NCBI RefSeq assembly: GCF_022201045.2
Contig: NC_068556.1
Location: 24,285,501 to 24,349,500 of the forward strand
Length of the DNA stretch: 64,000 bases
Source of the DNA: Citrus sinensis
Lineage: Eukaryota; Streptophyta; Magnoliopsida; Sapindales; Rutaceae
Reading direction: 5' to 3'
How positions within the stretch are numbered: the first letter of the stretch is position 1; each line of letters opens with the position of its first letter. Below the pieces are notes generated by a model. It made no database searches. It was not told the DNA's origin and worked only from the letters and a program-made list of their open reading frames with translations. The translations under genes and the position numbers were made by a program. This document shows, one piece after another, positions 10,215 through 62,978 of this stretch.

Positions 10215-11983
10215 TCACCATTGCTTCTTTCCCTTTTTCTTTCTCTTGTTGTTGCTGCTGCCGCCATTAGCAGCTGTGCCACTGCTTTTCGAGCTGCTTC
10301 CAGCTTTGGCAGTTGGGCTGTCAGTGGAGGTGCTGCCACTGAAATTGTCAAACAATCCGGCTTGCACAGCATTCTGCAACCACTCAAGGAATTCATCCTC
10401 AGTCATTGTTTCTTCCAAATTAGGTGGTGGCATCCGACCTCCTCGTTGTCCTGAACTTGTTCCCTTGCTGGTATTGTGCTTGGAGGTAACACTAGTGTTC
10501 ACATGAAAACTTGGCTTGTGAGTATTGGCTGGACATCTCATTCCCTGAAAAGAAAATCGAAGGGAAGCAATAATGCATTGCGCACATAAATGAATGAAGG
10601 TTTTGAAATGGACATGTAGGCATTTAGTGAAAACTTCCAACAGTGAAACTATCCAATCTACATCAACCCCAATACAAGTGGTTAGTTCACTCTCAAATCC
10701 TTAATATGTAATCCGCAATCACCAAAAACTAACCCCTCTGCCCTAGATGTAGTCAAAATCTGATAAAGTCGAGTGTATGGTGTCCGGTGATCTGTGAGTA
10801 TATCCGTGATTCATGTCAGGCAACTTGAGATAAACATTGATTCAGGATGCTAAAAAGAAACAGATTTACCTGACAAATATACCAATCAGTAGCATTGTAA
10901 ATTCTGCTATTGGCACAAACATACGCACAAGGAACATCTACCTGAACATCAAAGAAAAGGCAAATATCAGATCTCAATATTATGCTATTTTTTGTAAAAA
11001 TCATGGCACCAATTTTGAGTTATTTTACAAGGTATCCTTGTTTATATTAGGTACTTACCTTCTGAAATATTCCGAAAAAGAGAGGTTCGGAAGATTGTTC
11101 AACCCATCCATCTCCATCTTTTGCTTGATGATAATCATTGCATTCCTTCAAAAGGGAAATTTGGAGGGAAAATCATAAGCACCAGGAACAAAAATCTCTC
11201 CTTTACAGGATCATATCTTGCACTATGCCAGTATGCTCGGCGCCAACATTCATTAATGCCTGATATCTTAAAACCACATATAAGTGCAGAAAGCAAAAAT
11301 GAAAACCTGGCACCATCTTGCACTGGCCTTTGATTTCTTGGTCTCTATCCAGACATGAAAGTTATTGCACTTTTTGCAGGCAATTCGCCTTGATTCTCCA
11401 AAAGGATCGTCGCAGTCAGCCTCTGACCGTGCATATCCCGAGCCAAAGAAACCATGCCTACCATTCTGGGCAATCAAATAAATAAGAACACAAGTAAGAC
11501 CAAAGGATTTGATTTTCATTTCAATAAGTGCCAAGCACATAGCAGAAAGTTAAAAGAAACATCTTCAATCAGAAAACCGATAACTACATTCTCCATGATA
11601 CTTTTGCTCCACTGCCTTTTTGGGAGACAATATTCCAGAACTCTTAGATGCATTCTACAGTTGATAAAAATTACCTTGAACAAGCAAAAGCAAACAGAAT
11701 TTAACACTCACAAATGGCAAGCAATGGAGGACAATAGACAAAAAGCAATATGTTTTATCGAAAACAAAAGCATAGCCAGTGTCTTATTCACAATTATTTT
11801 TATGTTCAAAATATAATGTCCCACTTCACTCTATATTTTTGGCAACAAAATTAGACAGACTATTGAGTACAAATTAGTAGGCAATTCTTCCTCGAACATG
11901 TAAGTGGCTTAGGAGAACATGAAGAGAATGCTGAACGAAGTCCAAGGTCAACAACAAGATAAAAAATACTAGGAAAGAACAGC

Positions 11984-12020
<37 letters not shown>

Positions 12021-14569
12021 TATATCCAAACCTTCTGAGAAGCACTTTGGAATCTACGGAAATAGTCTAGCAGCTCTTCTCTCCTCAACTCATCGTCGTA
12101 TGCTTTTCGCTTAAAGGAATCAAAAAGAACCTAGAGAAATAAAGTTGAACACAAAATCAGAGAAAAATCATGAAAACATAAAATAAAGATTCCTCCATAT
12201 GACAACCCAGTAGAAACCAAAGACATTACCTCATACGCATTCTGAAGTTTTTTAAAAGCTTCAACAGCCTTTTCATTACCCATATTCTTATCAGGATGGA
12301 CCAGCATAGCCTACAAAATTTGAAAGGATCTATTAGGAAAAGTGAAAATCTTATTCCTTCTTTCCCATTTTGGATTAAAAGAATTTTGTAAATTAGCAAA
12401 GAAATGACACATAACTAGTAATGAACAAAACATTTGTAAATCAATAAGACCTAAGAACTTCTAAGAAAATGACATATATTGCAGATATAAAGCAGAGGAG
12501 AGATTAAGAAGAATCATGCTCAAAGTAGGCAAAACAACAAAAATGATTAAGACAGCATACCTTTTTTCTATATTCCCTCTTGAGTATAGACACATCAACG
12601 TTCTCAAACCGCGACAAGCCCAAAGCAGAATAGTGATCAGTACAATTCAATAACCGAACAACTTCATCTTCAGATGTCATCTCAGAGTCATCCCCACTGG
12701 TTGAAGGCACTCCAGGACTACGATCTGCTGATAACCCAGGAACATTATCAGAGAATGCAGGATGCACAGGCTCACCATTGGAAAAGCTTGGTCCAGCTTG
12801 CATTCCAGAGGTTTGCTCAGGGGAACTATCAGTTTTGTGCTGATTTACTTTACTCTTTAAGAAGAATATGAGAGCATCACTTGAGACAAAAGATAAATTC
12901 AGTGCCAACACCAAACCGAGCCATCCAACATAAGTCCAAGCACAATATATGGAGTACATAGTAGTAATAAAAAGTGCAAGGCGCTCATGGGTGAACTTGA
13001 AAGCCAAACCTGAAATATTAGCGCAAATTAGTTCTCAAAACAAATTCAAAAGCACAAGAAGATCCTCATGCAAAAAAAGGTAAAATCGTCACCTCCAAGG
13101 AAGATAACAAAAAATGTTGTCCAGAAACTTCCATAAAGCCATAGGAGAATGGTTCCAGATAAGGCAACAACAACGAGTGCAAGAGCAAACCCGATAAAGA
13201 AAGCCACCAAAGCAGCAACAACCTGAGATAACAAAAATTTTGGTTGTGCACAAGAATGCAAGTATATTAACAGCTTTGAAAAAAGAAAAAATCACAATAT
13301 CAAAGCTCCAGGGAATTCAATTCTAGCAGGAAAATAGTGAAATACCAACACACCCTATGAACCACGTCTCTGTCACACAATCACATAGATCATTTACCAT
13401 CATACAGAGTTTGACTCTATCCTTGTAATGGTACCACTTTTTATACCCAACTAGACCCAGAAACTACATATAAAGCACATAGAACACATTCAATTTCCAT
13501 GAGACATAAAAGATTTTCTTGTTTACTGCAACAAAAACGTAGGATGCTTGCAAGTCATAATCACATAAAGACAGAAAATGCAGCCAAAGGCTGCAAAATG
13601 ATTGTATTGTTTCTTAACTATATAAGGTGAAATTTAAGAAACAGAAAAGAGAAACTAAGTTAATGAGAAATAACTTCTACTAAATTACCAAGAATTTAAT
13701 CATTAGAAACCCTCTATTGAGTGGCAACATGAGGCATAATCAGGGCTTACCAAGACCATAAGAAACTTGAACATCCCAACCATAGCAATTACTGAGAGAA
13801 TGCTGCACCATATGACTGAAAAAAATGATGTTGTGCCCATCCGCATAAAGGAATCGATGCCCCTGATGGTACAGTCCAACCATAGCATTGATAGAAGGAG
13901 CATTATTTTTGCAAAATGTCCTAGATGGTTCAAAGCAACAGGATAAACTTGCTGAACCTTCATTGAAACATAATCATGAGCATTATATATGTTGGTCATT
14001 AGCATTGGACTCTGCCTCTCAAGCAACTCGATTGCAGCCTTCAAGGTGGGCACTACATATACCCTTAAGCTTCTAACCACTACATTAACAGAAAGCTTTA
14101 CCTTCTCCATCATATTTTTAAGATGCACTCTGTTTAGTGACCAGCCCAGACCAGTTTTTCGGTGTTTACGACCACGGCGAGCATTTTCTATTCTTACACC
14201 ACAGGTTTCCCTTGAAGAAATATTATCGGTTGAATCCCCTGCAATGGTCTCCGAAGTCTCCGAAGAAACCGATTGCCCAAGATCCTGCTTTGTGTCTGTT
14301 CCTTGCTTCTCTCTCCTCGGAGATGCCTCAGCATTGTTCTTCCTTATACTCTCATCTCCTGCATGATGATCATTACTTGAACTGTCCGCTGAAGGAATTC
14401 GTGAATGGCTACCATTTGGAAGTTCATCTCCAGGAAAAACCTTTACCTTGCCATCTCTTCCTTGTCCTGTCATATCAGGGACAGCAGACCCTGAGTTTGA
14501 GCCCTTTTTTCTGTGACTTGATGTATGGCGATCCACACCATTTTTCTGTTGATTACCCTTCCGAGCCAT
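10215..14569 (-). CDS. Membrane J-domain protein with Jiv90 zinc domain (DNAJC14-like, cf. At5g49580)
   Basis: Nine coding exons with GT-AG borders and closed phase: 14569-13751, 13222-13093, 13009-12561, 12310-12230, 12130-12032, 11465-11307, 11145-11059, 10941-10870 and 10544-10215, giving 741 residues. A basic, Ser-rich N terminus is followed by several hydrophobic segments (about residues 215-370), so it is probably anchored in an internal membrane, as is DNAJC14 in the ER. The J domain is about residues 441-505 with an intact HPD at 471-473, so it can stimulate Hsp70 ATPase. Beyond it is a Jiv90-type zinc site, C556xxC559 and C578xxC581 (sequence ARWCQECNDYH), and an acidic then Lys-rich C terminus ending KKKGKKQW. 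A 5' UTR intron is likely: donor near 15725, acceptor near 14701. The family assignment is strong; the partner Hsp70 and clients are not visible. Confidence 0.9.
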
Positions 14570-18396: not shown

Positions 18397-19458
18397 TTAA
18401 TTACAAGATAATATTGTGCTCCGGAATGCATGAGCAGAGAACCACAATGGGAGAGTAGAGCCGTACTTCACAGAGTACATTTCCTTCCAGAGTCTACCAT
18501 TCCGATGATAAACCAGCACCTGCTTATGAGTGGCCAGGAACACATATTCTCTAGTCTGACTTATAGGAAAAATGCTTGGCACCATACCCTTAATACATCT
18601 AAGACTCACTTTGTCCACCAAATGCCATTCATCTCTATAGTAATCTTTCAACACCCAAGTTTCCATCCACACATCCGAGATTTCAATAACCGACAAACAC
18701 CCATCACATTCCAACAAATAAGACCTACTTTCAGATCCAACTTTTTCCGGCAATGAAATCTTCCTCCAAACATCACCCTCCAGATCTAACGCAAGTATAA
18801 AAGAACAACTATCTGTCAACCAATGAAGAGCCCCATTAACAAACACAACTTGATTTCTGTTCATGATAGAGAACTGATAATAATCTTGAACAGACACAAA
18901 CTTCCTCCATCTATTTGACTCCGAATCAAATACCAAACATTTGAAAGTACCATCGGGTCTGTGCCCAAATGCGCGGTGATAGCCAGCTAACACAACATTA
19001 TACTTATTTTTTGCTAAATCACAAGCCAGACCAACTAAAGTGGCCTCACCATCAGGATAGAATCTAGTTACAGGCCTTTCTCTACTCTTAGGAAGCAACT
19101 TCCATTCTCTAGTCATGGGATTACAAACATAATAAACACCCATTTCAGGAATACTAGAGCAACACAACAAGCCATTACATGAAGCTCTAACCTTAACTCT
19201 ATCATGTAAAAAATCTAAGGAAATTTCAGTAACTCCCCTCCAATTATCAACACAAATAACACCTTTCGATTCTATTAAGTCCGAAATCTGCACCAATAAC
19301 ATTGGATTCTTAGAAGACACTTCATTGTATAGCCGAATGAAATACTTATCTGAAGTCAATTTGTTCCAAAGTTTGCACACTGTTTTGGTCCTAAATAGAG
19401 ACTTAACAGGCAATCTTGCAAGAATTTGTTGTATCACTTCATCAGGAAAAAATCCCAT
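18397..19458 (-). CDS. F-box protein, ortholog-like to Arabidopsis At5g49610
   Basis: Single-exon frame of 353 residues from ATG 19458 (MGFFPDEVIQQILARLPVK). An in-frame ATG at 19494 would add 12 residues; 19458 fits the family start, which puts the F-box at the extreme N terminus. The F-box covers about residues 2-45 (FPDEVIQQILARLPVKSLFR...CKLWNKL). A kelch/propeller-type F-box-associated region follows, with YVCNPMTREWKLLPKSRERP, LVFDSESNRWRKFVSV and LPLWFSAHAFRSTI. These blocks match my memory of At5g49610 along the whole length. The expected role is substrate adaptor of an SCF E3 ligase; the substrate is unknown. The frame is intact. Confidence 0.92.
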   Translation of the reverse strand: MGFFPDEVIQQILARLPVKSLFRTKTVCKLWNKLTSDKYFIRLYNEVSSKNPMLLVQISDLIESKGVICVDNWRGVTEISLDFLHDRVKVRASCNGLLCCSSIPEMGVYYVCNPMTREWKLLPKSRERPVTRFYPDGEATLVGLACDLAKNKYNVVLAGYHRAFGHRPDGTFKCLVFDSESNRWRKFVSVQDYYQFSIMNRNQVVFVNGALHWLTDSCSFILALDLEGDVWRKISLPEKVGSESRSYLLECDGCLSVIEISDVWMETWVLKDYYRDEWHLVDKVSLRCIKGMVPSIFPISQTREYVFLATHKQVLVYHRNGRLWKEMYSVKYGSTLPLWFSAHAFRSTILSCN

Positions 19459-20174: not shown

Positions 20175-20960
20175 TTATGTGCAGAGTAAGGCAAAGAACC
20201 AACTTACCACTTCCTGACAGTCAGACTGCACAATTAATGAATTCAAGTTTGCCTGCTCTGCCATCTGCAGGCCCCAGTCCGTAGCTTCAGCTTCTGCATG
20301 AAATACATCCCTCCAGAAATGGGACGTTTTGACAGCAGCAGCCACACTATTGCCATTTGAATCCCTGATAATTGCACCCAGTCCAGCCATTTGCTTGCCA
20401 CTATCAATTGCAGCATCAACGTTAAGCTTCAACATTTGGATCGAAGGGGGAGTCCATTGTGCTTTTTTCTTGCTAAGCATATTGTCCGCATGTGTATCCC
20501 TGGTTATCCCACTCTCTGTTAAGCATCCACTACAGATTCTACCTTTACAAGGAAAGTAAGAGGATTCATCTTCTTGCCTTCAAAGATGAATTTGCTCCTG
20601 GCTTTCCACACAACCCAACAGCAGGCCATCATAAATTCAGTTTCAGCTTTGCTAAGATTCTTGGAGACATCTTGGAGAACCCTTAACATATCCATATTGA
20701 TGGCAGTTAGGAAAGAGGCCTGCCTCCATAGATTTTTAGCTACCTTGCACCTCAAAAGAGCATGGTAAGCAGTCTCCACCCGTTCTCTACACAATTGGTA
20801 AATTGGAGATTGACAGGATTCTCTTCTTCTAAGTTGTCTGAATTTGGTAGCAAGTTTTAGGCTGCTCTCCAAGCAAAGTGTTTGATCTTGGCAGGAAGGT
20901 CAAAAGCCCAAGTGCCACTCCAAAGCTTAGGCGGATGACCAGAGCAACTAGGAGTATAAG
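20175..20960 (-). mobile_element. LINE (non-LTR retrotransposon) 3' fragment: zf-RVT and RNase H-like domains, broken
   Basis: The minus strand shows a reverse-transcriptase zinc-finger block (LWSGTWAFDLPAKIKHFAWR at about 20918-20870) and then CQSPIYQLCRERVETAYHAL with LLRCKVAKNLWRQA (20872-20519). A plant RVT_3/RNase H-like block follows (KLNVDAAIDSGKQMAGLGAI, then GLQMAEQANLNSLIVQSDCQ, 20480-20175). The frame is broken by stops near 20850 and 20500-20520, and neither the RT core nor the endonuclease is present. This is a 5'-truncated, decayed LINE, inserted between the F-box and DUF538 genes. Confidence 0.85.
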
Positions 20961-21780: not shown

Positions 21781-22287
21781 ATGTTACCACAAAACCTCCT
21801 CCCCAGTAAACTCATGAGCAGCAGCAACAACAATATGACTCTGGTAACCGAAAAGATGAAAGCAAGAGCTGAAGTGTATCATGGAGATGAAGTTTGCAGA
21901 AGAAAATTTATGCTTCTGTTAGCAGACATAGGGTTACCCGTTGGATTGCTAACACTTGGGGACATAGAGGAATGTGGTCATGTGAAGGAACTAGGGTTTG
22001 TGTGGTTGAAGCATAAGCAAAAGAAAAAGCACAAGTTCGAGAACGTCGTCGTTTGGTTTGATACCGAAGTTACAGCTTATTTTGAGAGGAACAAGATCAA
22101 GAATCTCACTGGGGTGAAAGCCAAAGAGTTCTTGATTTGGATTTCATTGTGTGAAATCTATGTCAACGATAGTTCCCCTAATGGAAGTATTACTTTCAAG
22201 ACTCCTGCTGGCTTGTCTAAGAGCTTTCCGATTTCGCTGTTCCAGGATGATCGTGGTGATCGGAATAACAATTTGCGTTCAAGTTGA
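21781..22287 (+). CDS. DUF538 family protein
   Basis: Intronless frame of 168 residues. The DUF538 core runs from about residue 25 (KARAEVYHGDEVCRRKF) through LLLADIGLPVGLLTLGDIEE, the basic KHKQKKKHKF, VWFDTEVTAYFERNKIKNLT and a C-terminal GVKAKEFLIWISLCEI. That is the full domain. Alternative in-frame starts exist at residues 12 and 19; no signal peptide is evident. DUF538 proteins are plant-specific; some are linked to stress and trichome phenotypes, but no reaction is established. A ~14-bp element (AATTTGCGTTCAAG) is duplicated across the stop, at about 22272 and 22310, so the last residues and the 3' UTR come from a local duplication. Confidence 0.88.
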   Translation: MLPQNLLPSKLMSSSNNNMTLVTEKMKARAEVYHGDEVCRRKFMLLLADIGLPVGLLTLGDIEECGHVKELGFVWLKHKQKKKHKFENVVVWFDTEVTAYFERNKIKNLTGVKAKEFLIWISLCEIYVNDSSPNGSITFKTPAGLSKSFPISLFQDDRGDRNNNLRSS

Positions 22288-24136: not shown

Positions 24137-27100
24137 TTAGATACTGAATTGAAGAGGTTGGACAACCAATTCAGCATCATCCTTCTGAGGTTCTCTTTTC
24201 TTTATAATAGAGAATGGTCTCAGAATGCATCTTGATAAGCGGCTTAGTGGGTCCTGCAGACCTTCCATCTGATAGTGTCCAAACCGCCAATCTCGTTGGA
24301 TATAAGGCCGTTGAGTTGGTTCATCAAGGCCTCCTGTCAAAAGAAGGAAATGAATGTTATTGCATACCTTACTTAGAGGGATCTCAATAAAAATAATTAA
24401 AAAAATGAATTACAACTACCACCATTGACAAGGAATATGATTCAGATACATGTATGATACTTATGCTCCACATGACTAGTTTGGCCTACACAAATTTATA
24501 TTGTTTTTCCAAGCTCTTCATACTACTAGTACTTCTTAGTCAGGGGAAAATCTGAAATCTAGTTGGCCTGTTAACAAAGCAAAGATTAAGAATACAGGAG
24601 TACAATTAAACAAGCAAGAGTCTTGGATGCAAGTGATTGATAATGAATAACAAGAGTAAATTCCAAGAAGATGAAATGAGTTCATTTACCTGCATACATC
24701 AATCCATGTTTATTAACTGCCCGATAGAATGGTCGTGTCTTTTTTTGTTTAGCAGCTAATTGAAGTTCACTCCATGCACGTGCTCGGTCTTCACGTGTGA
24801 CTTTACCAGTAGTGACTACCTGAAATCAAGATTTGATCTAAACCATTGATAAACACCACAAGAGTTTCCAGAAGGACCAAGATAGTCAATGCAAAACAAA
24901 AATGAACTGTTACCTTGGTAAATAGATGGTACGAAGGACGAGGAATGCGGGCAAGATTGTTTGCCCGGTCCACTGCAACGAGTCCAAACTTGGGACCATA
25001 CCCATCAGCCCATTCCCAATTGTCAGAAATAGTCCAAAAAAGATAACCAATCACAGGGACACCCTGTAAATCAACAATGATAAGGTCTAACATATGACGA
25101 TTATATAATCAATTAACCAAATTTCAATGAGTGAAAAGCTAAGAGACAAAACTGTAATCATGGCAGCATAAACAGCAAGCAAATGTTCTATAAGATATGG
25201 TCGACGAATCAGATCTGTCTCATCAGAAACCCCATTTTCTGTTATGATGAAGGGTAAGTTCAAATGCTTGTATCTTTCATGGAACTGGTGCAGCACACGG
25301 AACAGACCATCAGGATATACACCACGTCCAGATTCACTGTACTCATCAGTCTCTACTAGCTTCAAGCCAGGACCAGAGACCACTTCCTGCACAGAGAAAT
25401 ATTGATTGGTAAGACCGGGTTGTTTACAATCTTACTGAATAAAGAGGCTAAAAAAGCACCTGTCCGTAGTAGTTAATGCCCATAAAATCCAGCCTGTCAG
25501 AGATACTATCCACATATGGAAAGGTGGTAAGGGTATTAGCCAATGTAACCGCAGTAACATCAAAGAGACCATATGGTCGCATAAATGATACATGGTGTGC
25601 TACCCCAACCTTCGACTTTGTTGATGTGCTGCTGAAAGTAAAAGAAAAAGTAATGGTAAAATTGATATGATGGAAAAGCAATAGAAACTTAGTGGATGCA
25701 TTAAAGTAACTCGCTTATCAAGCAATTATGGAGATGTAAGAAAAATGTAAGTTGTGAGAAGAGATACAATGCTCAGAATTTAGAAAAGAATATACACAGA
25801 GACAAATGTGATGACGAAAATATTTCAGTAAACAGCCTCAGTTACTTTGAATTAAAGGAATTTTCAGTTATGTTGATTTGAGATGGATAAGTCATTTGTC
25901 CACAAAATGTATAACTTATACAGGAAACACAAGAATCATAAAATAAATTTGTGTGTTTGTGCTAACTACTCAGTGTTCCAACTTGCCATCTATCAAGAAA
26001 AATTCAGTGCAGGATTCTTTTCTGAAGCTTATAAGGGGAAGAAAAACCTTTTTGCATGAATATAATCATAGGCCTTTGAGTGTGCAATGGCCATCCAATG
26101 CATGGCTTGATTGAAAACACCAGTAGGTAAGGCAGAAGTGGCAACTTCCAGCATATCAGGATTACCACCAGGCCAAGTCCCCGCACAGTAAGTGAGCATA
26201 CAAAAGACATGCGGCTCATTAAATGTTACCCAATAATCTACGATATCTGATACACTGTCGACAACAAGCCTGCAGAAAAGCAGAACATGTAAGACTTGCA
26301 AGGCTGATAAGAAAAATACTAGTCATTCCCTAAAGCAAGAAACCACGTGCATACATCGGAATTGATTGCCATTGCCAAATCAATTACTAGAAATCATTTT
26401 CCTTAAGGGTACATTTCACTTAATTTTGATTTACGAATAACTATAAATTTGTGTTACTATCATTTTGTTCCTGAAAGGTGGATAAAAAACAGAGCAGCCA
26501 CTGATACAACCTACATCATTTCAGAAAATTGATGGTAACTTGAACAGCTGGAAAAATCCATGAAATAGTCAACAGTTAAAGCAAAACTAACCTGGTAAAA
26601 TCCATGAAATAGTCAATAGTTTTTTCCAGCTTCCAACCGCCATACTCACCAGCCCATGCTGGCAATGAGTGATGGAACAGGGTCAGCATCACTTTCATTC
26701 CATAGGAGCGAACCCTATTGATGATCCACTTATATCGCTCCAGTGCTGCAAAATTAACCTAGAAAGAAAGTCATGCAACATAGCTAAGCAAAGATACAGC
26801 TCAAAAAATGTCAAGAGTATGAAATTTGGGTGGATTTTCTAATGGTAAGTTAAACGTCAGAACTGTTTTAGGTCTCCAACCAGGGTTCAAAGATTCAATC
26901 AAATGCATTAGCTATATGAAAAATAAATAAGACTTACAGTTTCTTTAAGACCATTGACTGGCTCCGCAGGCATGATCCTTGACCAATCAATTCCCAGCCG
27001 AAAGACACTGACACCAGTGTCTTTTGCCAGCTTCAGTTCTATATCAGGATCAGACCAAAATCGTAGCCTTTCTTCCCTGCAACATATCAAGTTATTGAAT

Positions 27101-45367: not shown

Positions 45368-45451
45368 CTCCCCTCTCCCTCACTCGCTCTGTGTGTCTCT
45401 CTATATCAGTCACTCGAAAAAAGGTTCTGATATTTCATGCAATTAATAGCA

Positions 45452-49002: not shown

Positions 49003-51857
49003 TTAGACACGGATCTGGGATCTTGCAGCAAAGCGTAAGCATTTCTTTCGACCAGTTTTGCTAAGTGCACAAACACAATTCTCAAGAAGCTCGTAGTCCT
49101 CCTCCCAGAATAGCAAAGATGCCTTGGCTGGGTTCTCCAAAAGCATCTTTGAGGTTAAGTAACCAGCAATTGTCCATGTTTGGTGAAGCCGGGATTGCTT
49201 GCCTATAAACCTCCCACTTTGTGTGTCATAATACTCAGGCCACTGATCCACTGACAGCCTCTTTTCCGCCATTGCAACTGCCTTTTCTGCTAACTCCGGC
49301 CTTCCCATCTTGATGCAGGCCAAGGTGAACTAGAATATCAATCAGCAAATACATCAGTGAATATCCAAAATCATATTTGAACCAAACCTAATTAATGTGT
49401 AATCATTTCTTTTATTGATAGTTAAAAAAAAAAAAAAGGAAAAGGATACTTGAAGAACTTTAATCCCTACCTGCCATAAGAGTGTTGGCCAAGATCCACC
49501 ATTGTGATATGACCATGGACTGCATGCAATCAAGGCTATGTGTTAATAAATTTATTCAAATGAAAAGGTAAGGGTGTTATAAAGCACAAAACAAGAGCCT
49601 CACGTGTTCTTTGGGTCACCGCCAGTGATTATTCGCCATTCCTCGTACTCCAAAGCAGGGTAACAGATCTTAAGAGGCATATGAGCAACAAGATCATCCC
49701 ACTTAGCCTCAATTAAATTCAGAATACCCTCATTCTGTCTTGCGGTACCCAAAGAAGAAACAATGGCCCAAAGATTTCCAAGAGTGAAGAATCTAAAATC
49801 CATGTGACCTGGTTCTAGATTGCCAATAAGATAGCCACCTTCATTAGGTATCCAATCTACAAGCCATGAAGGAATTTGATCTGGATAGATGTTGAACTTG
49901 TTGATGGCATCCACAGAGTATTCTTCAGTCTTGTAACGATAGATCTCATTGATTTTCATCATATCCACCCAATAGTACTCTCTGACATGAAATGAGAGTG
50001 CACTAAGTCTGTTATTTATTGCAGCTACCAGGTTCTTAGTTCCATCATTGACAATGAGCATCTCACGAGAGCAGCGTAATGCCGAATAGAATAATGACTG
50101 TAAAATCAGATGCGTCAAGCAAATCACAAAATAAACTAGAGGCAAACAAACATAAACAAATCACAAACACAGGAGAATTTGAAAAAATCAATCAAGTGAA
50201 GATGGTAGGCAAAATTAGTTAAGTAACTAATTTTTTCCTATTCTTCCCAAAATAATCAAAAGTTAACAACAAAAGCATTGGCATCAACCTCATGTTGTCA
50301 GATAAATGGAAAAGACATTTATCACAGCAAAATCTGAGTATTCGACTTACTTGGATTTCAAGAGGGTGTCCATGAATACCCATGCGTCTATCAATCATGC
50401 AGGAACCATCAGTGACTAACAGAGAAGGAAACATATCGAATCCATCAGTTAGACAAAGATTAAGGATCAGTCTTATGCCTGTTTGGACGTCCACCCTCTC
50501 CTGCAATGCATAGTCACCGGTGATCTTTCCGTAAGCTCTCAACAAAATGATCCACCATAACCCTATCAATGAGATCAACATCTCAATCAAATTCCAAGTA
50601 TGCTATTAAAAGAAACTCTAAAAAACTACAGTATTCTAATTTGGGAATACACTGGATTAATATCTAGACATGCAGAATGTCCACAATGATGAAAACTTTC
50701 CAGCAACATTAGCCATAGACAAACTACTGGTTATCAAACAGTGTACAGTATATGGAACATTGCATTATCTTACCAGAATCAACAGGGGCAACACGACCAA
50801 TGGCTGATTCTCCAAAATCAGGATCTAAAACCTCTTCAAGTGTTCCATCGCCTCCATCAAGAGGCACAGTTCTAACTTTGAAACTTGCTGGCATCAAGCC
50901 TTGGCCAGGACTATAGCAGTCCACAGTCTTCTCCCAACTCTGGAATCAATCAAGGAAATATTTGATAAATTAAAAGTTAGAAGAAATGCCAATGCCCATG
51001 TAGAAAGCAAAGCCAACATCTCAATGGTTAATATCCCAACACAACATTAGGTTTAGATCATAAGTTACCTGTAATTGCAATGTGTGAAGAAGAAAATTCT
51101 TGACAATCTCCCCTTCTCCATTGAGCAAAAAAGCAAGTGCAGAAGGTACAAAATCACGAATAAACACTTGATCATAATTCAGAGGTTGCTTGTCTGCGGG
51201 ATTATTGGCTGCAACTGTCCCCACCGGATTCCCACAATAATTAACAACCGCATCCCGAAGCAACTTCCAAGCCTCCTTCTCAATATTCGATGCCTCACTC
51301 TCAGTTTCAACATTCTCATTCAGATCCTTCAAAATATCCAAATTTACACCTGACCCATTAACCTGTACCCTACTCTCATCTTCTTTCACTACCTCATTTC
51401 CATTTTCAATCTTTTCAATCACAAATGGCTTCACATTCAAACCACCTTGAATGTAAATACTCTCAAATCCCTTCTCACTAACATGGCTATCAATAGACGT
51501 GGAGTGGTTCCTAAAATCCGACGCTACGTGGGGAATTACTAAAATACCCCTGCTACTATCTTTATTTACACCGAGCTTATTCTTACCTAAGATCTTAGAT
51601 TCACCCCAATTCGAACCAGAGGCAAAAAAAGCCCTCCGGTTCAAATCAATTACACCCTTCTTATGCCCTATAACCTTACACTTGGCATCATTATAACAAC
51701 TAAGCTTCGATTTTGAATGTAATTTCGACGAATTGTTTACAATTTTATGATTTGATCTTATATGAGAAACTCCAAATATTGAAGAGATTCTATAACCAAT
51801 CAAGATTCTACAACAGGGTTTCATTGTTGAGATTCCAATACAGCTACTAGTATTCAT
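49003..51857 (-). CDS. INVC-like: Alkaline/neutral invertase (GH100), A/N-INVC-like
   Basis: Six exons in phase: 51857-51069, 50939-50774, 50562-50351, 50097-49604, 49519-49471 and 49329-49003, giving 678 residues. It cleaves sucrose to glucose and fructose at neutral pH. The ~200-residue N-terminal extension starts [20 protein letters not shown], is basic and Ser-rich, and matches my memory of Arabidopsis At3g06500 (mitochondrial A/N-InvC), so an organellar location is likely. The catalytic domain has [87 protein letters not shown] and [16 protein letters not shown], all GH100 hallmarks. Exon 5 is only 49 bp. The frame is intact. A 5' UTR intron (about 51879-52038) is suggested by a GTAAGTAAAG donor. 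Confidence 0.95.
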
Positions 51858-52120
51858 TTTTTTTCCTTTTAAATACAGCTATCTCAATTATAAATTATAA
51901 TTAAGCTATTAACTAAAATGGTATTTATTTTTTTTTATATACACAAGGCTCTGCTAATTCTAAAATATTAAAAACGAAGGGAGAAAAAAGAAGCTAAAAA
52001 TGAAATGAAATAAAAATCGAATTAAAACCTTTACTTACAATTAGAGAAACGACTTTGAAGATTCAGCTTGTGAGAGAATGTGTGAAGATTTGGGAGATAT
52101 TGGTGGCGCTGCTCCAACGG

Positions 52121-52130
52121 GAATTTATAG
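52121..52130 (-). promoter_or_regulatory. TATA box of the invertase gene
   Basis: Minus-strand CTATAAATTC lies ~265 bp upstream of the ATG. With the inferred leader intron of ~160 bp the spliced leader would be ~75 nt. The position is good; the function is inferred. Confidence 0.45.
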
Positions 52131-52296
52131 GCAGCGTAAAGTGAAAGTTCGTGGATGATTCGGACGATACGTATTTACATTTTTGTCCCTGCACGTGCAA
52201 ATGGTTTGGATGATGTTGAGATCGAATTCTCAGTCTGTCCTTGAAGAATGAGTTTATTACCAGTTTACCACCACGTTTTTTGGGGACATTTTGACG

Positions 52297-52323
52297 TGTA
52301 TATATATATATATATATATATAT
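52297..52323. repeat. (TA)n microsatellite
   Basis: About 13 TA units sit just upstream of the invertase promoter. The length is likely polymorphic. Confidence 0.9.
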
Positions 52324-52568
52324 TTTAAAGAAATATGGAAAAAATATACATTTTTTTAGTTTGTCTTGTTTAATATACTTAGTTCAAGAATTAAAATACT
52401 TATAGTACAAAGAAAGTTATGTTTAATTTTTAATATATAACTGAAAAGGATAAATTTATTTAATTTTTCCCTCAAGAATTATTTAAACAAGCAACTCTTT
52501 GAGAGAATTCAATTTTTTAGAGATTAATATTTAGAATTAGAAAATTATTGAGATATTATCTATATTAA

Positions 52569-52709
52569 GGATCAGGCTACGGTGCAACTGTGACACCGTG
52601 CCACAGTTGCATCTAGCCGTTGGATGCAGTTAGAGTGGTGGGGTCCACTGGCATCCAACGGCTAGATGCAACTGTGGTACGGTGCCACAGTTGCACCTAA
52701 GGTTCTCCC
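52569..52709. mobile_element. Compact MITE, a hairpin with nested hairpins, 9-bp target duplication
   Basis: A 141-bp element is flanked by a perfect 9-bp duplication, CTATATTAA (52560-52568 and 52710-52718). Arms of ~45 bp are near-perfect inverse copies (GTGCAACTGTG...CATCTAGCCGTTGGATGC and its complement) around a ~23-bp spacer. Each arm also folds on itself (TGCAACTGTG against CACAGTTGCA). The 9-bp duplication suggests Mutator-like mobilisation. GC content is far above the flanks. Confidence 0.85.
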
Positions 52710-53112
52710 CTATATTAACTATGTAATATTACAATAAAGATATTTGAAAAAAAATGGATTAAATATGTATTTTAAATGTTTAAAATAAATTATTCTCTTT
52801 CACACGCGAGGGGCTTGAACTATTCAAAATTTGTTAAATTTTAGCTTTTGTACCGAAGAATTTTAAACGTCAAAAAATAAATCTAAATACAATTTTTATT
52901 TACAACGAATTCAAATATGACTTCTCTTTTTGCTTTTGTTGAACAAGTCACGCAAGCATCGTTCCAAATACCTAAAGCGGGTCCGTCAGAAAAGAGGGTA
53001 AAATCGTCTTATCATTTTTACATTTACGAATGGATCAGATTGGTCGGTTGAGTCTCTAGTATTCCGGTCTTAAATAAATGTGCAAAAATCGAGAAAGCAA
53101 CATTTTTTAAAA

Positions 53113-53314
53113 GAGTAATGATACAGCCACAAACTCTTGTACAAATTTATTTTGTACAAACTGATGTGGCATTAATTCATTGGTTGAATGAAAATATAAA
53201 ATAATAAAAATAAATCATGTGGGCCAAGTAATATTTAATTCAATCAATGTTATCATGCCACATCAGTTTGTACAAAATAAGTTTGTACAAGAGTTTGTGG
53301 CTATATCATTACTC
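53113..53314. mobile_element. Inverted-repeat MITE with ~75-bp arms (hAT-like duplication)
   Basis: Left arm GAGTAATGATACAGCCACAA and right arm complement GAGTAATGATATAGCCACAA extend inward through TTGTACAAA and TTTGTACAAACTGATGTGG for ~75 bp, then a short AT loop. Flanks are TTTTAAAA and TTTTGAAA, an 8-bp duplication with one mismatch, as expected for hAT elements. It has no ORF. Confidence 0.8.
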
Positions 53315-53962
53315 TTTTGAAAAAGGACATTTAAGAGAAGCAACGATACATGTATTTACACGTGTAAATTTATGATTGGTTCGAAAACTAACAGCTACGA
53401 CATCAGAGGAATCAAGTGTTTTTGGCTAATACGACACCGTAGTTCTATTGCGCATGTTTCCAAAAGGCTAAAATATCTCCAAAAGATATCTCTTCGTTGT
53501 TCGAAATATCGCGATATCGTGAACTGATATTTTGCTTTTGTTGGTGTATGCCGTGCATGAATGTCCGTTGGAGTCAATTAAATGGCCCAGTTGATACTTT
53601 TGGGCCAAAATGAATCCTAATAACTATCCCATTGGGGTTCATACCAAATAGTAATCGAATAGAAGCCCATTTAAGACCTTCCCATGGGCTATTTAATTAC
53701 GAGGGTTTATAAAAATATAATTCAATCATGATGTTACAGTAAAAGACTTTCATATCTTATCTTTTCCTTTCTAAAAATGACGTTGATAATAAAAGAATTA
53801 ATCTCAAATCGATTTTTTTAGTCACGACCTTCCTTGAATTTGGATTCAGATGGTCAATAAAATAAATAAAAAAATCTGTTTGAAACTTAGTCAAGTCTCT
53901 GAGGTTACTTTCATATAATCATATCTTATCTTATATCTTGTATCAAATTTTTATCTCCTTAA

Positions 53963-54093
53963 GAGTAATGATAAATATCTGAAATTTCATCTGAAATGAT
54001 GTATCGTTTATTGAGTGGCTGATAGTTTTTTATAAGATTTAAGTGAATTGATTTTATTATATTACCAAACAATTGATAAATGCTATATCATTT
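53963..54093. repeat. Degenerate relative of the 53113 MITE
   Basis: It begins GAGTAATGATAAATATCTG and ends GCTATATCATT, the same termini as the element 850 bp upstream, but the interior and arms have diverged. No target duplication was found. Confidence 0.45.
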
Positions 54094-54119
54094 AGAGACC
54101 AAATAGTATTTTGCGCCCA

Positions 54120-54256
54120 AAAGTGTAGCCGAGCTTTTTTCTAAGTAATTGTATTTAACTGGTCACCCAAGTTTGAATCTTGAGAGAGGTAAAGGACTAT
54201 AAAATGAATATAGGCTTTACCTACTCCCTCGCCCCTCCTTTAAAAAAAATAATAAT
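54120..54256 (+). repeat. SINE-like sequence
   Basis: It carries a tRNA B-box-like AAGTTTGAATCTTGAG and ends in CTCCTTTAAAAAAAATAATAAT, an A-rich tail. The A-box part is weak. The layout suggests an old tRNA-derived SINE, but no flanking duplication was identified. Confidence 0.35.
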
Positions 54257-56150
54257 TGTCATGTTAAAATAAAAAATTTGAGATGTGTAGTGCTACTCAT
54301 CTTCTGAATTTTAATAAACCCATTATATGAGTCAATAATTTTCACTTAATCGCCATCTTTGATATCGTAAGCAATGATCTATTTTCTCACTCACCGGATG
54401 CATTGCTTGACTAGTGTTTTTCTAGGCATTAAACTTTAAATAATGGTTTTAGTAGTTGTCGAGGTCTAGGCCGCTAATCTAACTATATATATAAATAATT
54501 TTCAGAACAACTTTAGGATAGTGATCAATTAAGCAATAGCATTGAGTTTTTTATTCAATCGTGGATGACTTTATAGTGCTAATTAATCAATTGTGTCGAG
54601 GGCGTGCATTTCATGTATTAAGAATTTATGTTAAATCATGCTATTAATGCCTTTAAAATAAATTAATTTATGTCACAAAAATGTCTTACAAGTTACTAGT
54701 CTTAGTTTACCGGAGTGAGTAGATTGCGGGCTTGTGGCTTGAGATATACATATTCAATTGATCTTCAATAATAAAAAGATTAATTAAAAAATGTCTCATC
54801 AATAATCCTTAGATTCAGGCTCTTCAGAAAAAAAAAAAATCTTAAAATAGAAACGTTTACTGTTTTTGAAATATGTATATGATTCGAAGCTATACTGTAA
54901 CTACTAGTTGTGAATGGATGATAAATTGTAATAAGTCAAAATAGTTCACATTTAAAGCTATACACACGTCTTTGATAGAGAATGACTTATTTAAACATTT
55001 TTTTTAAAATATTATGTTACAGTCCATTCATATTTATAATAAAATATTTGATAAACATTATTAAGAAAAATTTCAATAATGGCATATGCCCGATGTCTAA
55101 GCTTAATAATTAGAAGAAAATCTTCTTTAAAATACACACAAGAGACTTAAATCCCTATTCATTTGCATGGAAATGGAAGTGTTCTAGCTCCCGGTTGTAA
55201 GGGTTAGCCAACTAACATTAATTATTTAGGTGGTGTGTTTGCACACCACGTTCCATCAATAGAAAATTGTATTCAATTTGACATGGCCTTTCTAATAACT
55301 CTCAAAATATAACTTATTATGAGTTATCATTCTATTCTTACCACACATTTTCCTTCTTAATTTTAAATCAACAATCACTTTCTTGACTCATAATAATCAT
55401 CTAAATAATTCCAGCTCCGGATCCTGGCTATGTTAAATCACTTCCAATGCCTAACCATGCAAATCAAGTAAAATAAACTTTTGCGTGCTCACTATATTTA
55501 TAGACACAAACCTAAACAATGAGTCCCATGGGCAATCTAACTTCGATTAAGCATTTGATGTTATGAACGCAATTAATTAGGAAGATGGAACATCAAGTAA
55601 CACATCACCAAGCACATTGTATCAAGTGATCATCAATGGTGGATCACTAAAGCCTAGTGCAAATATCGCTTTAACGTACGTTTTGAGGCCAAAAAGAATT
55701 GTACTGTTTCGAACGTAAAATATAAAGTTCATAGTTTGGTCTCTTTTATACCAAATCCGGCCAGCTGAGATCAAAGAACTTGCATTCTTCAATGCTTCGT
55801 CATATAAATTAGCAGCTAACTAATATTCACATACACAAGCATCTAATTATTATGGAACTCTAGATGAGGAATCTTTCAATTCCACATTCAGTAAGATATC
55901 AACAAGTTGTATACTTAATCGTATTCGTCAATTAATTTGAGATGTGTTAGGCTCCGTTGTACATAGACATGGTAACTCCATTGTATTGATGTTCGCACGC
56001 TTTAAAATACAGATTTAGACTCGATAAGCAACTAACTGATTTAATCAATGCTATATTATAGCTAGATGGATCTAACCGGCTACCGTTCAATATAAATTAA
56101 CAATGTCACGGGTAGATCATATGATGAAGCTGAAAATTTAATCCTTTAAC
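54257..56150. other. Intergenic, no gene seen
   Basis: AT-rich with no supported ORF or repeat border. Confidence 0.4.
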
Positions 56151-56154
56151 TCAT

Positions 56155-56341
56155 GTTTGGTTGGAAAAATGGTAGGAGAAGAAATGAATGGAAAGAAAAG
56201 AAGGGGAGAAAAAATGAGTGAAAAAGAAAGTTAATTTCATTTTTATTGTTTAGATGGACAAAGAATTTATTTTTTTCATTTATTTTTTCCCCTCTTCTCT
56301 TCTTTCTTCTCCTTATATTTTTTTTCGAACCAAACATACCA
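56155..56341. mobile_element. Small MITE: purine-rich half facing pyrimidine-rich half
   Basis: The termini ATGTTTGGTTGGAAAAA and TTTTTCGAACCAAACAT are inverted copies. The left half is G/A-rich on the plus strand and the right half C/T-rich, so the whole can fold back. TTAA lies near both borders, which would fit a 3-bp TAA duplication as in PIF/Harbinger elements, but this is not decisive. Confidence 0.55.
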
Positions 56342-57600
56342 TTAAGAGACAGAAAAATTAAAATGTATAACGTCAATCATGTCAAACCTGCCCATCAAAA
56401 TTAATTTCCTGACATGAATAAGCACAATATCCAAAAACAAAAACTATGTTCTTACTTTGTTACTTATAACAAAACTCCCACACGAGCACTTACTTTATTT
56501 TTTACGGGTCCGAAATTTCTTCTATCCTTTTTCGGCCATGTTTCATTAATTGAAAGGGATGACACCAAAAACTCTCTTCAATTATTAAACATGCACCCAA
56601 AATTTCTAGATTCACAGCTTGTCAAAAATGGTACATGTAAAGCGATGTATCATATGCACTATTAATTTAGCCATCACCTCGCTTTCAATACAAAAATTTC
56701 ACGCAACGTTAAAATGAGAATTGAGAAGGATGTTGATACGTCAATTGGCATAAAGTGGTAGTAAAAGGGGAAGAATAAAGTACAGTTTCTAGCAAATGTG
56801 TCATCACATTTACTAAATTTTGATCCAAATTTATGTACAAACAAATTCGTTTCGGTGCACAATCAAGTGGGTTCATTTCTTTATCTTTAGTTTTACATGT
56901 TTTTTTTTTTTCTAAGATCACCATTTGCCTATCTTTAGTAAACCACCCTATGGTTTTAAATATTTTATCTACATGTATAAATATACGTAAAAATGTAAAT
57001 CTTCGAATTAAATCTAATAACAAATGACATATGTAATGATGTAAAGTAAGTTGGAGGACTAACGTTTTAAACATGATTCACGTGTTGTGTAAAAATATCC
57101 AAAACACCAAATGGTACATATAATTATGTGTGATAATTATTTTTTTTCATGACCAAACACGTGGATTCAATTATAAGCTACAACAATGAATAGTCCAAAA
57201 CAAGTGGATAGATAAAAGCCAATGAATAGTCCAAAATGAATTGAGAATTAAAGTTATTGGTCCAATTTTAACATTTAGCATGAGATAAAAATCACTTTTT
57301 ATCTCCTTTTAGGGTATGCATGCATTCATCGTCTTCAAAAGTTGAATTATTATATAGACTGGCACAGCCATAAAGATTGGTATCTACTTTTTGGAGTGGA
57401 TATTCAGATATTTAAAATACAATAATAATTGAGATTGTAATAATTAAATTTCAATTATAATCTATTATATATATTAAATAATAAATTTTATATCTAAGAA
57501 AATTAATATTTTAACATTCATTAAATAAATTTCACCGTATTAATCGAAACTCAAGGTAGGACTTGATTGTTGGGATCATAGAATTACTCTATAAAAAATA
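56342..57600. other. Intergenic, no gene seen
   Basis: ORFs at 56414-56665 and 56709-57074 have no domain. Nothing else is recognised. Confidence 0.4.
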
Positions 57601-57609
57601 TAAATTCAA

Positions 57610-57722
57610 GGATCACCTTATGTTACGTTAAACGTAACATACACACACTCACAGCAACAATAACAGACTAAATTAATACTGTTGTTGTGAGTGCGTGTAT
57701 GTAACGTAACGTAGCACCGGCC
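57610..57722. mobile_element. Foldback MITE with 9-bp target duplication
   Basis: A 113-bp element sits between perfect copies of TAAATTCAA (57601-57609 and 57723-57731). Arms are inverted (ACATACACACACTCACAGCA against its complement with TGTTGTGAGTGCGTGTATGT). The left end also contains a nested palindrome, GTTACGTTAAACGTAAC. Both this element and the one at 52569 start GGATCA and leave 9-bp duplications, suggesting the same transposase class. Confidence 0.8.
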
Positions 57723-58033
57723 TAAATTCAAACTCTTTGTTAAGCGTGTGAAGCAGTTGAACTAAATAGTCCCGCGAACAGTATTACAGCGTCGTTTCAA
57801 AAGACTTAGCATCCACATTTAAGCCTAAGAGATAAATCCATGAATGAAAGAATAGAGTAAGCAACCTCGATCGCTACGCTACAAACTTCTAAATATATAT
57901 GTACTAAAAACTGCAGCGAAAAGACAATTTGGTCACACCGTCGTGGCAATAACTGCTGAAACTACACAAATCAATCAAACAACACTCTGCGTGATAATAT
58001 CTACTGAGGGTACACGAATAAGAATAACATAAG

Positions 58034-58647
58034 GGGTAATTTTTAAAAACCTCCCCTGAGGTTTGGACTTGTTGCAAGTAGATGGTGAGAATCTGTTTAT
58101 TTGTAAAAAACCCCCTACCGTCAGTTAACTTTAACATTGACCGTTAGTTGACTGTGTAAAGACAATATTACCCTCAACAACAATTTGTAGACGGAAATAA
58201 CTAAAAAAAAATTAAAATTGTTGGCGCGAAAAACACAAACCCTATTTTTTGACAATTTTATCCTTGTCAATTCCAAAAATTTACAATATCATAAGTAAAG
58301 ATTATAACTATTTCATTTTCAAGTTTTTAATTTTATCTTTTTTGTTGAAACTTTAAGAAAATATCAATCATTTAAAAAGAATTTTTAAAATTTTAAATTT
58401 TATCTTTCTTGTAGGAACTTTAAGAAAATATCAATAATTTAAAGAGGATAAAATAGCCAACAATTTTAATTTTTTTTTAGTTATTTCCGTCTACAAATTA
58501 TTGTTAAGGGTAATATTGTCTTTGCATAGTCAACTAACGGTCAATGTTAAAATTAACTGATGGTAGAAAATTTTTTATAAATAAATCAATTTTCGCCATC
58601 TACTTGCAACAAGTCTAAACCTCAGGGGAGGTTTTTAAAAATTACCC
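58034..58647 (-). mobile_element. Long-TIR Mutator-like MITE, copy 2
   Basis: 614 bp, the reverse-oriented sibling of 33963-34592. Arms of ~190 bp (58034-58224 and 58458-58647) run from GGGTAATTTTTAAAAACCTC to TTAAAATTGTTGG. The flanks ATAACATAAG (58024-58033) and ATAACATCAG (58648-58657) are a 10-bp duplication with one mismatch. The interior carries a doubled phrase AACTTTAAGAAAATATCAAT. It has no coding capacity. Confidence 0.88.
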
Positions 58648-61233
58648 ATAACATCAGCCACGCGTACGAGATATATATATATATTTTTATTTCCTCCTAT
58701 GCAAAGCGAAGCTTTTCTCCCGTCCCATGTACGCTCATAGTCATCATAAGACGGAGAAACATGACAACTGCTTACAGCCGTCCACATATACGTCGATGCT
58801 ACGTCGGATTCTCGCGCGGGCCCCAGCATGTTGACCGGGTGAAGTCGTGGTCGTTATGAGGCGGTATGGGCATGGGCATCCACTAGAAGAAGATTGTCAG
58901 TGATTGGAGTTTTGTAAGTTTGAATAGGAGATGGAAAATATTTAGAAACGTGGCTCAAAGACAGTTGTCTTTCGCAATTTTGTGGACTACAGCTCGACAT
59001 TCTTTTCGTACCTCCACACACAAAAATAACTCTTCCCATCTAAAACAAATTATGCACATTCTTTTTAATTATTTATTTTTTGATAAATTACACACATTCT
59101 TTTCAGCCAAGTAATCCTTTTTATTAATTAATAATCTTATAAGTAAATCTACTCAAATTACTTTTTATCTCAATTAATTTTTAAAAATGAGTCTAGTGAT
59201 AGCCTAGATCTCTATAATCATAATATACAATCTCATACTTTATCAAGTTGTGACTTAGAATTATGCGCCTAGCCACCCACTACATATAATATAATAAATA
59301 AACTCCTTATGTAAAATCAAATTAACATGATACGGCATCTTAAGATGAAGATTAATGTGGCCAAAGAACTCTTTTTTTTTTTTTTAATTAAAAAAAATTT
59401 ACTCGAGACTTGAATCCTCTGTATTATAGATAAAAAAAAATAAAGTGCCAACCAAATTGAAGAAAGAACTCTCGTTTCAAGAAAAGGACACGGGTGATTA
59501 TGATTTATGACAGAGACTATAACCTATGGTAAAATGAATTGCTTTCTTTTTTCGGAATTATAGTGAAATGAATTAATAAAAAGAAAATACACAGACACGT
59601 GTACAAGCGAGAATGAAAGGTTGTGCACATGCATTAATACGTGGGTGGTGGTGTAAGTGTTACGTGGTCGTATTGCATAGAGGGGTTTTTTCATTTTCAA
59701 GAGTTGCGGCTGGTGGTGAGTGTTTCAGTCCAGGAAGCCTAACCAAACTCCCACCCAATTAGCGTTCGCATTAGCAGCATTAGCTGTTAACCAAATCCTT
59801 TTGTTTTAATACAAATCTTTTTGACGCAACACGTGGCACCTCCTCAACATACTTCTTATTTGGGACCACTTTGATGGCTTCTCTTATAGGCGCGCGGCCT
59901 TCAAAGATTCCCTCCGCCGCCACGCTTCTCTCTCCCACCTCTCTCAGTCTCTCCAAACTACGCTACTATTCCATCACGTGGGAGTCACATTTTCAGTCTT
60001 TGATCTTTAACTTCCACAAATCAGTATTTGATCTATTTGAAAATGAAATTAACCACAAATTATCAATCAAGCACGAATTTAAGTCCTAAATAACTACTCT
60101 TATCGATTGTGTGAGTTCACATTGTCGTTTGGGATTTATATATCTTTGTTTATCAATTATTCTAATTTTGTTAAATCTTGAAATGGAACTAATAAAAATA
60201 TTTGATCCACTTTTACATTTCAACTAATGTATATTAATTATAATGGATGTTAGCTAGTTGATTTGCTTAGCTCATAAAACCTTTTAAAATAAAATTAGTT
60301 AACGTCCCTCTAAAAAAAAATTAATATTAACAATTACTCACGGTTTACACTGCTTGTTACTTTGTTAGGAAGTGATTCTTTTTAAAATAGTTATTGATTA
60401 AAAACCACGACATATAATTCCAGATATAATCGAAGAAAAGGAGGGTTTGAGAGCACAGTATATATACAAATTTTATTAATTATACTACCTTTAGAAAAAC
60501 ATGGACTACTTGTATAGGATGATTATGTGAAGTTTGTCTGGTTTAATGGGGTTAATCTTAAGCAAAATGTCCGTACGATGATGAACAAAGGAATGTAAAG
60601 ATTGGGATCGTACTTAAGTGGCAACAAGCATCAATAATGATCTAACATGATAAGATTCATCTTTTTAAACAAGTTAAGTCCCTAATGGCCAACTTAACCC
60701 ATAAGTTGATGAATCCTAAAGCGCCACGTCTCCCAAAAACATTAATTACTTGTAATTAATTTGATCACTTTTTGCGTTCTAGAAACAAGACAATAATAAT
60801 TTTGGAACCTCTTCACTCTCTACAAACAGGTTCACGCCCCATGGACAATTGTTTCAAAAGTAGCATGACTTAGATTACACTATATTCTAATCATAACGCT
60901 TAGAATAATGACTTGTAATTATAATATTGTGGAACCAAATAATTCACATCTTTATTATTTTATTAATATTAATAGTAAAATTATCTCCAAAGACATGCTC
61001 CTATATTGCAATCACTTGCTTGAAAAAGTAAAAAAAAAAAAAAAAAAAAACTACTACTACCGGGTCAATGTCAATGTATATCAAAGAATGAGATTAAAAA
61101 TCTCAAATTACAAATTTATCCCCCACCCACAAAAAAAAAAAAAAAAGGAAAAAGAAAAAAATTACAGATCGTAGAAATTCATATGTCCTAAAGCTTATCT
61201 TGTTCCCGTTTCATAAGTTTTTCTTCTCCCTTT
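58648..61233. other. Intergenic, with a GC-richer block and an orphan transit-peptide-like ORF
   Basis: 58720-58890 is GC-richer and lacks an ORF of note. At 59874 an ATG opens MASLIGARPSKIPSAATLLS followed by Ser/Leu-rich residues, like an organelle targeting peptide. After ~35 codons it dissolves into AT-rich sequence and stops at 60089, so it may be a captured or decayed first exon. A ~20-bp poly-A lies near 61031-61050. Confidence 0.3.
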
Positions 61234-62978
61234 TCACATGTTGGTGTTGAATTGCTGCTGTAAGGACCATAATTCATCAACATTCATATTCCACAGATTA
61301 TCAGACGCATCTCCACCGTCCATCATTGGATTATTGGCCTCGAAAGCTGCTTGGAAATCAATGCCAGGGTTGAAGTAACCCGTGGGACTAATAAGAGACG
61401 ATTCCGCGAAACCGACATGACTCTGGAAATAATCCGGATTAGTGTTATTATTAACCGGAATAGCATAGTACTCCGCCAAGTCCGAGACAGATGAAACCTG
61501 AGTCCCAAACGAGTCCGATGAAGCCCCCGTGCTTGAATTCTCCGGGGTGTAATGACAAGTAGTAATTTGTGAAGTTGTAACTTGTGATGAACAATTCAAT
61601 GGCTGCATGACCATTTGCTCCGTGCCCACATCAATGTTGTTGAAGAACCGACTAGCCGGTTCATCAATGGGGGCGGTGGTGAAGCTGCCGGAGGTGGCTC
61701 CCGTAGTTGCGATTGGGGTGGCCGTTGCGGCCGGGGCCTCCGAGGCTTTATTGGCTTGAATTCTTTCAATCAATCTTGGCATCCATAAATATCGCATGGT
61801 GTCTTTGAATTGCTTGCTGTTCACGTCACATTTAAGCTGTTTTGCGTGCTTTTGGACTCGGGTCCTCCAATAATTCTTGATCTCATTATCAGTTCTGCCC
61901 GGCAAGTGTTGAGCAATTTTCGACCACCTGTATACATATGTATGCGTATGTAAACAAATTATTTGGCATCAAATTTATAATCATTAGGTTACACAAACAA
62001 GGAACCCAGATGAAAAGTTTGTGAAGTTCATTAAAATGAATATTAATTTAATTTACTTACCGGTTTCCCCATCGAGAATGAAGCTCTAGAATCATAAGCT
62101 GTTCTTCAAGAGTGATGTTTCCACGTCGAACATCGGGTCGTAAATAATTCAACCACCTTAATCTGCAGCTCTTTCCAGTTCTTTTGAGGCCTGTTCCATT
62201 GAATTTGGCTTAGATATATGATAGTTTTTTGTTTTTAGTTTTCTTTTTTTTTGGTAAAGTTGTCAAAGAAAATTATCGTGAATTGGAAATTTGCTTTCAT
62301 GAGAAGTGCTTTTTGCTTAAGGACTTTCCACAACACATATGCTCTTTTTATTTAATAGATCAACTTGCATCTTATCATCTCATCATATATATCAATATCA
62401 CCAACTTCATAATGATAAACACAAAAACAAAGCTAGCTAATACGATTTCTCTTTTTACGCTAAACATGCAGCTTTTATATTTTGCTTCAAATAGGCAAAA
62501 TTTTTTGAAAAAGAAAAACACTAAAACGACAAAAGGGAAAAGGAAGCAAAAACTTCGCCGTGTCGATTATGCATAATAAGGATCTTTCTCTTTCGTTAAG
62601 AAAAAACGAAAAGCCCATTTCACTCCAAGAAAAGACATGGAGATAGAAACATGGCACGAACAAGTTGATGAATTTAATCATCAACTTGTCAAATTTTCCT
62701 CGTCTATTATTATTATTATTGTTTATTTCATTTCACGAGAGAATTATCTCGACAGAACTAGGGGAGTTTATTAAAAAAGAAAAAGAAAAAAAATTACCTG
62801 CACAACGAGCAAGACAGTTCCATCGGCCTTCACCATGATTAGAAATGTAATTAATAAGCTTAAAATCTTCTTCAACAGTCCATGGACCCCTTCTCAAGTC
62901 CAGGTCTTCTTCAGAAATGGTAGTGCTTGATGATTTGGAGTTGCCTTTGCTTCTGCAAGCTCTCCCTTTAACTTCCAT
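61234..62978 (-). CDS. MYB108-like: R2R3-MYB transcription factor, subgroup 20 (MYB108/MYB78-like)
   Basis: Three exons, 62978-62798, 62190-62061 and 61927-61234, give 334 residues. Intron positions are the standard R2R3-MYB ones (after CAG in R2 and at GNR|W in R3). R2 spans about residues 27-78 with W33, W53 and W73. R3 is about 81-131, with Ile86 replacing the first Trp as usual and W105 and W124 present; [11 protein letters not shown] is the recognition helix. The subgroup-20 motif [12 protein letters not shown] is at about 150-161. The C terminus is Ala/Thr- then Asn/Gln-rich and acidic ([19 protein letters not shown]), a likely activation region. Arabidopsis relatives act in the nucleus in stress, jasmonate, stamen and senescence responses. 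The frame is intact. Confidence 0.95.

Follow-up and report, generated by a model that had tools for sequence, protein, structure and literature searches.

How did genes that are divided between two chromosomes in Arabidopsis come to lie side by side in another plant? A 64,000-nucleotide stretch of DNA, analysed here as a whole and called the window, raises this question. Between positions 10215 and 62978 it carries seven genes, identified by Pfam domains and splice models, in the order DnaJ-Jiv90, F-box, DUF538, SFR2-type GH1, GA 2-oxidase (GA2ox), neutral invertase and R2R3-MYB. The original prediction had listed these seven genes in this order, and Pfam scans and GT-AG splice models bore out both the list and the order. 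The gene families of two Arabidopsis half-sets, taken on the Arabidopsis side from published locus numbers, are found together in this one interval. Very probably, the window is a nuclear segment of citrus-like origin in which an old eudicot neighbourhood survives; in the Arabidopsis lineage the segment would have been copied, and the two copies would then have lost complementary genes.

Five of the genes gave uninterrupted spliced proteins with GT-AG introns, and the F-box and DUF538 genes are one open reading frame (ORF) each. The DnaJ-Jiv90 chaperone gene (10215-14569, minus strand) was modelled with 9 exons encoding 741 aa; the scan for J and Jiv90 domains used the Citrus x aurantiifolia DnaJ P0121, which is 98% identical to the window protein and carries both. 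The single-exon F-box gene (18397-19458, minus strand) encodes 353 aa from an MGFFPDEV start and scored 35.5 bits with PF00646 and 45.9 bits with PF24750, its best propeller family; PF23635 (AT5G49610-like) scored 24.9 bits, below its cut-off of 27 and below PF24750. The DUF538 gene (21781-22287, plus strand; PF04398, 95.7 bits) is given from the first Met of its ORF. The GH1 gene (24137-28586, minus strand; 10 exons, 654 aa, GH1 201.1 bits) is presumably SFR2, a name given from its general features. The GA2ox gene (45452-48518, plus strand) has 3 exons, a first intron of 1.8 kb and a product of 329 aa, in which Pfam found 2OG-FeII_Oxy (95.0 bits) and DIOX_N; its best solved structure was 6ku3, Gibberellin 2-beta-dioxygenase 3 (E 1.2e-82), and it is a putative class II member. 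The alkaline/neutral invertase gene (49003-51857, minus strand; 6 exons, 678 aa) matched the GH100 profile over all of its positions (1-435 of 435) at residues 196-637 with 732.9 bits, leaving an N-terminal extension of 195 residues ahead of the domain. The MYB108/78-type gene (61234-62978, minus strand) consists of exons 62978-62798, 62190-62061 and 61927-61234 and encodes 334 aa that are 99% identical to P0001, 78% to Zanthoxylum and 70% to poplar P0008. It is the DnaJ match to Citrus x aurantiifolia and the MYB match to Zanthoxylum that mark the window as citrus-like. The search for further block genes covered the 12 listed ORFs of at least 90 aa in the gaps 28587-45451 and 51858-61233, none of which matched a Pfam family at its cut-off.

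Several other features were seen along the window. An F-box gene with a KIB1-4 propeller (4849-6119, plus strand; PF03478, 101.7 bits) has a frame that breaks at a T run near 5820, with the remainder in another frame; it is either a pseudogene or the product of a sequence slip. The ORFs at 569-988 and 7647-7943 (both minus strand) matched no Pfam family at cut-off, and by eye the former resembles the beginning of a small, plastid-targeted membrane protein. Between the F-box and DUF538 genes lie the remains of a reverse-transcriptase element (20175-20899, minus strand; RVT_3 above cut-off, zf-RVT below it), and intron 1 of the SFR2-type gene contains a 94 nt tandem duplication whose copies are 93% alike (28170-28357). 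The GA2ox-invertase pair is flanked by two inverted copies of a palindromic element (33963-34539 and 58034-58648; 94% alike over 446 nt), which resembles a foldback or MITE-type transposon.

All seven Arabidopsis locus numbers given in the original prediction were found in print. The chromosome 5 loci are At5g49580 for DnaJ (PMC2613251), At5g49600 for the DUF538 protein SVB6 (PMC8268597) and At5g49610 for the F-box protein (PMC3499479), and those on chromosome 3 are At3g06500 for A/N-InvC, called mitochondrial (PMC5612693), and At3g06510 for SFR2 (PMC11525325). MYB78 (At5g49620) and MYB108 (At3g06490), which had been proposed as the surviving duplicate pair, are published as homologous pair AtHP41 (PMC3542171). 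Further literature drawn on was PMC11897725, PMC3896445, PMC7744511, PMC6626041, PMC7596293, PMC10661998, PMC11203840 and PMC5853547. For the six genes other than the MYB, orthology to the named Arabidopsis loci is inferred from family and published locus number, and the DnaJ gene is matched to At5g49580 on the basis of its family and its position; sequence comparison with Brassicaceae was confined to the MYB. The DUF538 and invertase assignments are the weakest, because Arabidopsis has six SVB-type DUF538 members (PMC8268597) and three mitochondrial invertase members (PMC5612693).

Compared by locus number, the predicted agreement in gene order held on chromosome 3, where SFR2, invertase and MYB are collinear with the window, but not throughout chromosome 5, where F-box and DUF538 have changed places. 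In the window DnaJ is followed by F-box and then DUF538, whereas the chromosome 5 numbers run DnaJ 49580, DUF538 49600, F-box 49610 and then MYB78. Because the two genes stand in opposite order, at least one local rearrangement separates the window from Arabidopsis chromosome 5. One gene model each from Malus (P0163) and Cannabis (P0165) joins an F-box and then a DnaJ, with the relative order and strand of the window. The window F-box matches P0163 at 73% over 347 aa (residues 17-361) and P0165 at 72% over 250 aa (residues 39-287), and the Citrus DnaJ aligns with residues 379-1106 of P0163 and 309-1033 of P0165. Because these joint models share the arrangement of the window, they suggest that Arabidopsis is the rearranged side.

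Two trees were used to follow the history of the MYB, the only gene that the two Arabidopsis half-sets have in common. Of 182 MYB proteins listed, 78 and 36, hand-picked for spread, were combined with the window protein in a quick tree of 79 rows and a careful tree of 37 rows, which agree on the points used here. In both trees the Brassicaceae proteins split into two clades, one including MYB78 records from A. lyrata, B. napus and Raphanus and the other a MYB108 record from B. rapa and a MYB108-like one from Camelina; none of the listed MYB rows carries the name A. thaliana. The record names are partly automatic: Brassicaceae rows such as P0283, P0286 and P0287 of Camelina, which were left out of the trees, also bear the name "MYB108-like" although they are only 57-60% identical to the bait. 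Support in the 37-row tree was 100/99 for the MYB108 clade and 100/100 for the MYB78 clade, and the window MYB grouped there with Zanthoxylum (100/99) and then with Melia (99/97). The window MYB branches outside the split between MYB108 and MYB78, as the original prediction requires, and both trees place that split within the Brassicaceae. Forcing the window MYB into the MYB108 or the MYB78 clade was rejected (p-AU 2.45e-07 and 2.29e-08, respectively), which rules it out as the ortholog of one Arabidopsis gene alone. According to the tree, the MYB108-type genes of citrus and poplar are co-orthologs of both MYB108 and MYB78, which is useful for naming orthologs.

The MYB occurs once in the window, and a diverged second copy is found elsewhere in Citrus x aurantiifolia (P0091). 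This MYB108-like protein is 81% identical over 64% of the window MYB, has a different C-terminus and groups with the Rutaceae copies in the 79-row tree; it is possibly a recent extra copy.

These trees also bear on whether the Arabidopsis half-sets were formed in another way, in which part of the block was translocated or transposed and the MYB was duplicated separately, without segmental duplication followed by loss. The F-box/DUF538 swap shows that rearrangement did happen in Arabidopsis, and each half-set holds only 3-4 genes, both of which speak for such an origin. However, the sole gene shared by the two half-sets is the terminal one in each, and its copies split inside the Brassicaceae in both trees, as loss after duplication predicts. 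We consider translocation very improbable and infer that the Arabidopsis pattern was made by loss.

As to the age of the duplication, the MYB108 and MYB78 clades join with a support of 94 in the 79-row tree and of 89/90, not starred, in the 37-row tree, and three copies from Tarenaya (Cleomaceae) branch outside the joined pair in both, followed by other rosids. The likely event is the Brassicaceae alpha whole-genome duplication. The alternative is that the MYB split and the block duplication predated the divergence of Brassicaceae and Cleomaceae (the beta event or earlier); in its favour, a grouping of MYB78 with Cleomaceae was not rejected (p-AU 0.154), and the MYB108-MYB78 join had the 89/90 support given above. 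The corresponding grouping for MYB108 gave p-AU 0.0135, which counts against an older split, as does the position of the three Tarenaya copies, and we regard it as unlikely.

Closeness in other plants was assessed for the two ends of the block, MYB and DnaJ, by the distance between locus tags. Among 20 assemblies with both genes listed under one tag series, 14 had them no more than 40 tags apart, at a spacing of 3-34 tags: Nyssa, Xanthoceras, Jatropha, Bauhinia, Erythroxylum, Rhamnella, Paulownia, Sarracenia, Bertholletia, Camellia fascicularis, Clitoria, Ulmus, Diplodiscus and Pterospermum (two loci). Nyssa, Camellia, Sarracenia, Bertholletia and Paulownia are, we take it, asterids. The pair was not close in the other six, being 370 tags apart in Liquidambar, 3788 in Flemingia, 18188 in Canavalia and 44467 in Citrus x aurantiifolia, and on different chromosomes in Craigia and Corymbia; the count was made from the best 120 rows per listing, so that a miss may involve another paralog, and in Citrus x aurantiifolia the MYB row is the diverged copy P0091. 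Closeness in 14 of the 20 rules out chance. Judged by these two ends, the neighbourhood is thus widespread among both rosids and asterids, with Arabidopsis as the derived case.

Such persistence could also mean that the genes were kept together because they work together, as a cluster for stress, gibberellin and sucrose. The closeness of MYB and DnaJ across many eudicots would fit this, as would the presence of GA2ox beside a MYB of subgroup 20 (S20) in the window, in poplar and, by number, at At1g47990/At1g48000. The products nevertheless belong, by family, to unrelated pathways, and the genes are separated in Arabidopsis; we find a functional cluster hardly credible. The inherited neighbourhood is an ordinary one, and no function need be assumed for the linkage.

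The original prediction had set GA2ox apart as the one member that fits neither Arabidopsis block, and this does not hold. In poplar, Potri.008G101400 is the MYB (the locus of P0008), Potri.008G101500 the neutral invertase NIN1 and Potri.008G101600 PtaGA2ox4. By locus number, with sequence compared for the MYB, these three genes of chromosome 8 are consecutive in the order of the window, which rules out GA2ox as a late intruder. Poplar differs from the window in having the block in two copies; on the homoeologous chromosome 10, GA2ox5 (010G149700) and MYB108 (010G149900) are two numbers apart. The published descriptions also differ, with NIN1 called cytoplasmic and the Arabidopsis A/N-InvC mitochondrial. 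Of the 12 identifiers searched at adjoining poplar numbers, none was linked in a paper to SFR2, DUF538, F-box or DnaJ. Primers at the first codon and in mid-gene of poplar GA2ox4 and GA2ox5 map to corresponding sites in the window GA2ox; these matches were dropped as evidence, as their scores were barely above those of shuffled primers and about equal to those of other GA2ox primers.

In Arabidopsis, GA2ox4 is At1g47990 and MYB112 is At1g48000; the numbers are consecutive, which indicates that the two genes are neighbours. MYB112 belongs to S20, as do MYB78 and MYB108, and AtGA2ox4/6 make up the class II C19-GA2ox class, as opposed to AtGA2ox1-3 (PMC10169729). The chromosome 1 pair resembles the window in placing a GA2ox next to an S20 MYB and differs in that, by number, no invertase lies in between. 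GA2ox thus looks like an old member of the neighbourhood, and GA2ox4-MYB112 is perhaps a relic of an older, third paralogous copy. We give about an even chance to the proposal that the GA2ox-MYB pairing predates the Arabidopsis block duplication, with the chromosome 1 pair and the GA2ox-invertase-MYB108 of citrus and poplar being paralogous copies of a single ancestral S20-MYB/GA2ox neighbourhood that dates from the gamma hexaploidy or before. If this is true, the window and Arabidopsis together preserve relics of more than one ancestral copy. The GA2ox-MYB pair gives a lead, open to testing, towards an earlier common neighbourhood, and is the one point worth following. No paper was found that places a poplar MYB beside GA2ox2 or GA2ox7 (002G191900 and 014G117300; six identifiers searched), nor was one found in the text of the poplar MYB paper.

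Taken together, these data are best explained by an ancestral set of DnaJ, F-box, DUF538, SFR2, GA2ox, neutral invertase and S20-MYB that would have been copied as a segment in the Arabidopsis lineage, most likely by the alpha duplication. The chromosome 5 copy would have retained DnaJ, F-box, DUF538 and MYB78 and the chromosome 3 copy SFR2, A/N-InvC and MYB108; GA2ox would have been lost from both, and the MYB alone kept twice. The window would hold the unreduced set because its lineage never had that duplication. The description of the window as an undivided ancestor is therefore right about the undivided families in one interval, but the window is a living lineage without that duplication and not an ancestor.

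Fractionation of Arabidopsis alpha-duplicate blocks relative to an unduplicated outgroup is a general phenomenon, and the present case is an ordinary example of it, with inherited gene order. It shares the same features, namely subsets that complement each other on two chromosomes of Arabidopsis, an outgroup that has them united and one pair kept in both. There is no difference in kind, only a local difference in F-box/DUF538 order and the absence of GA2ox from both halves. It offers a clean worked example, with no new mechanism, of how an unduplicated genome explains genes that are scattered in Arabidopsis.
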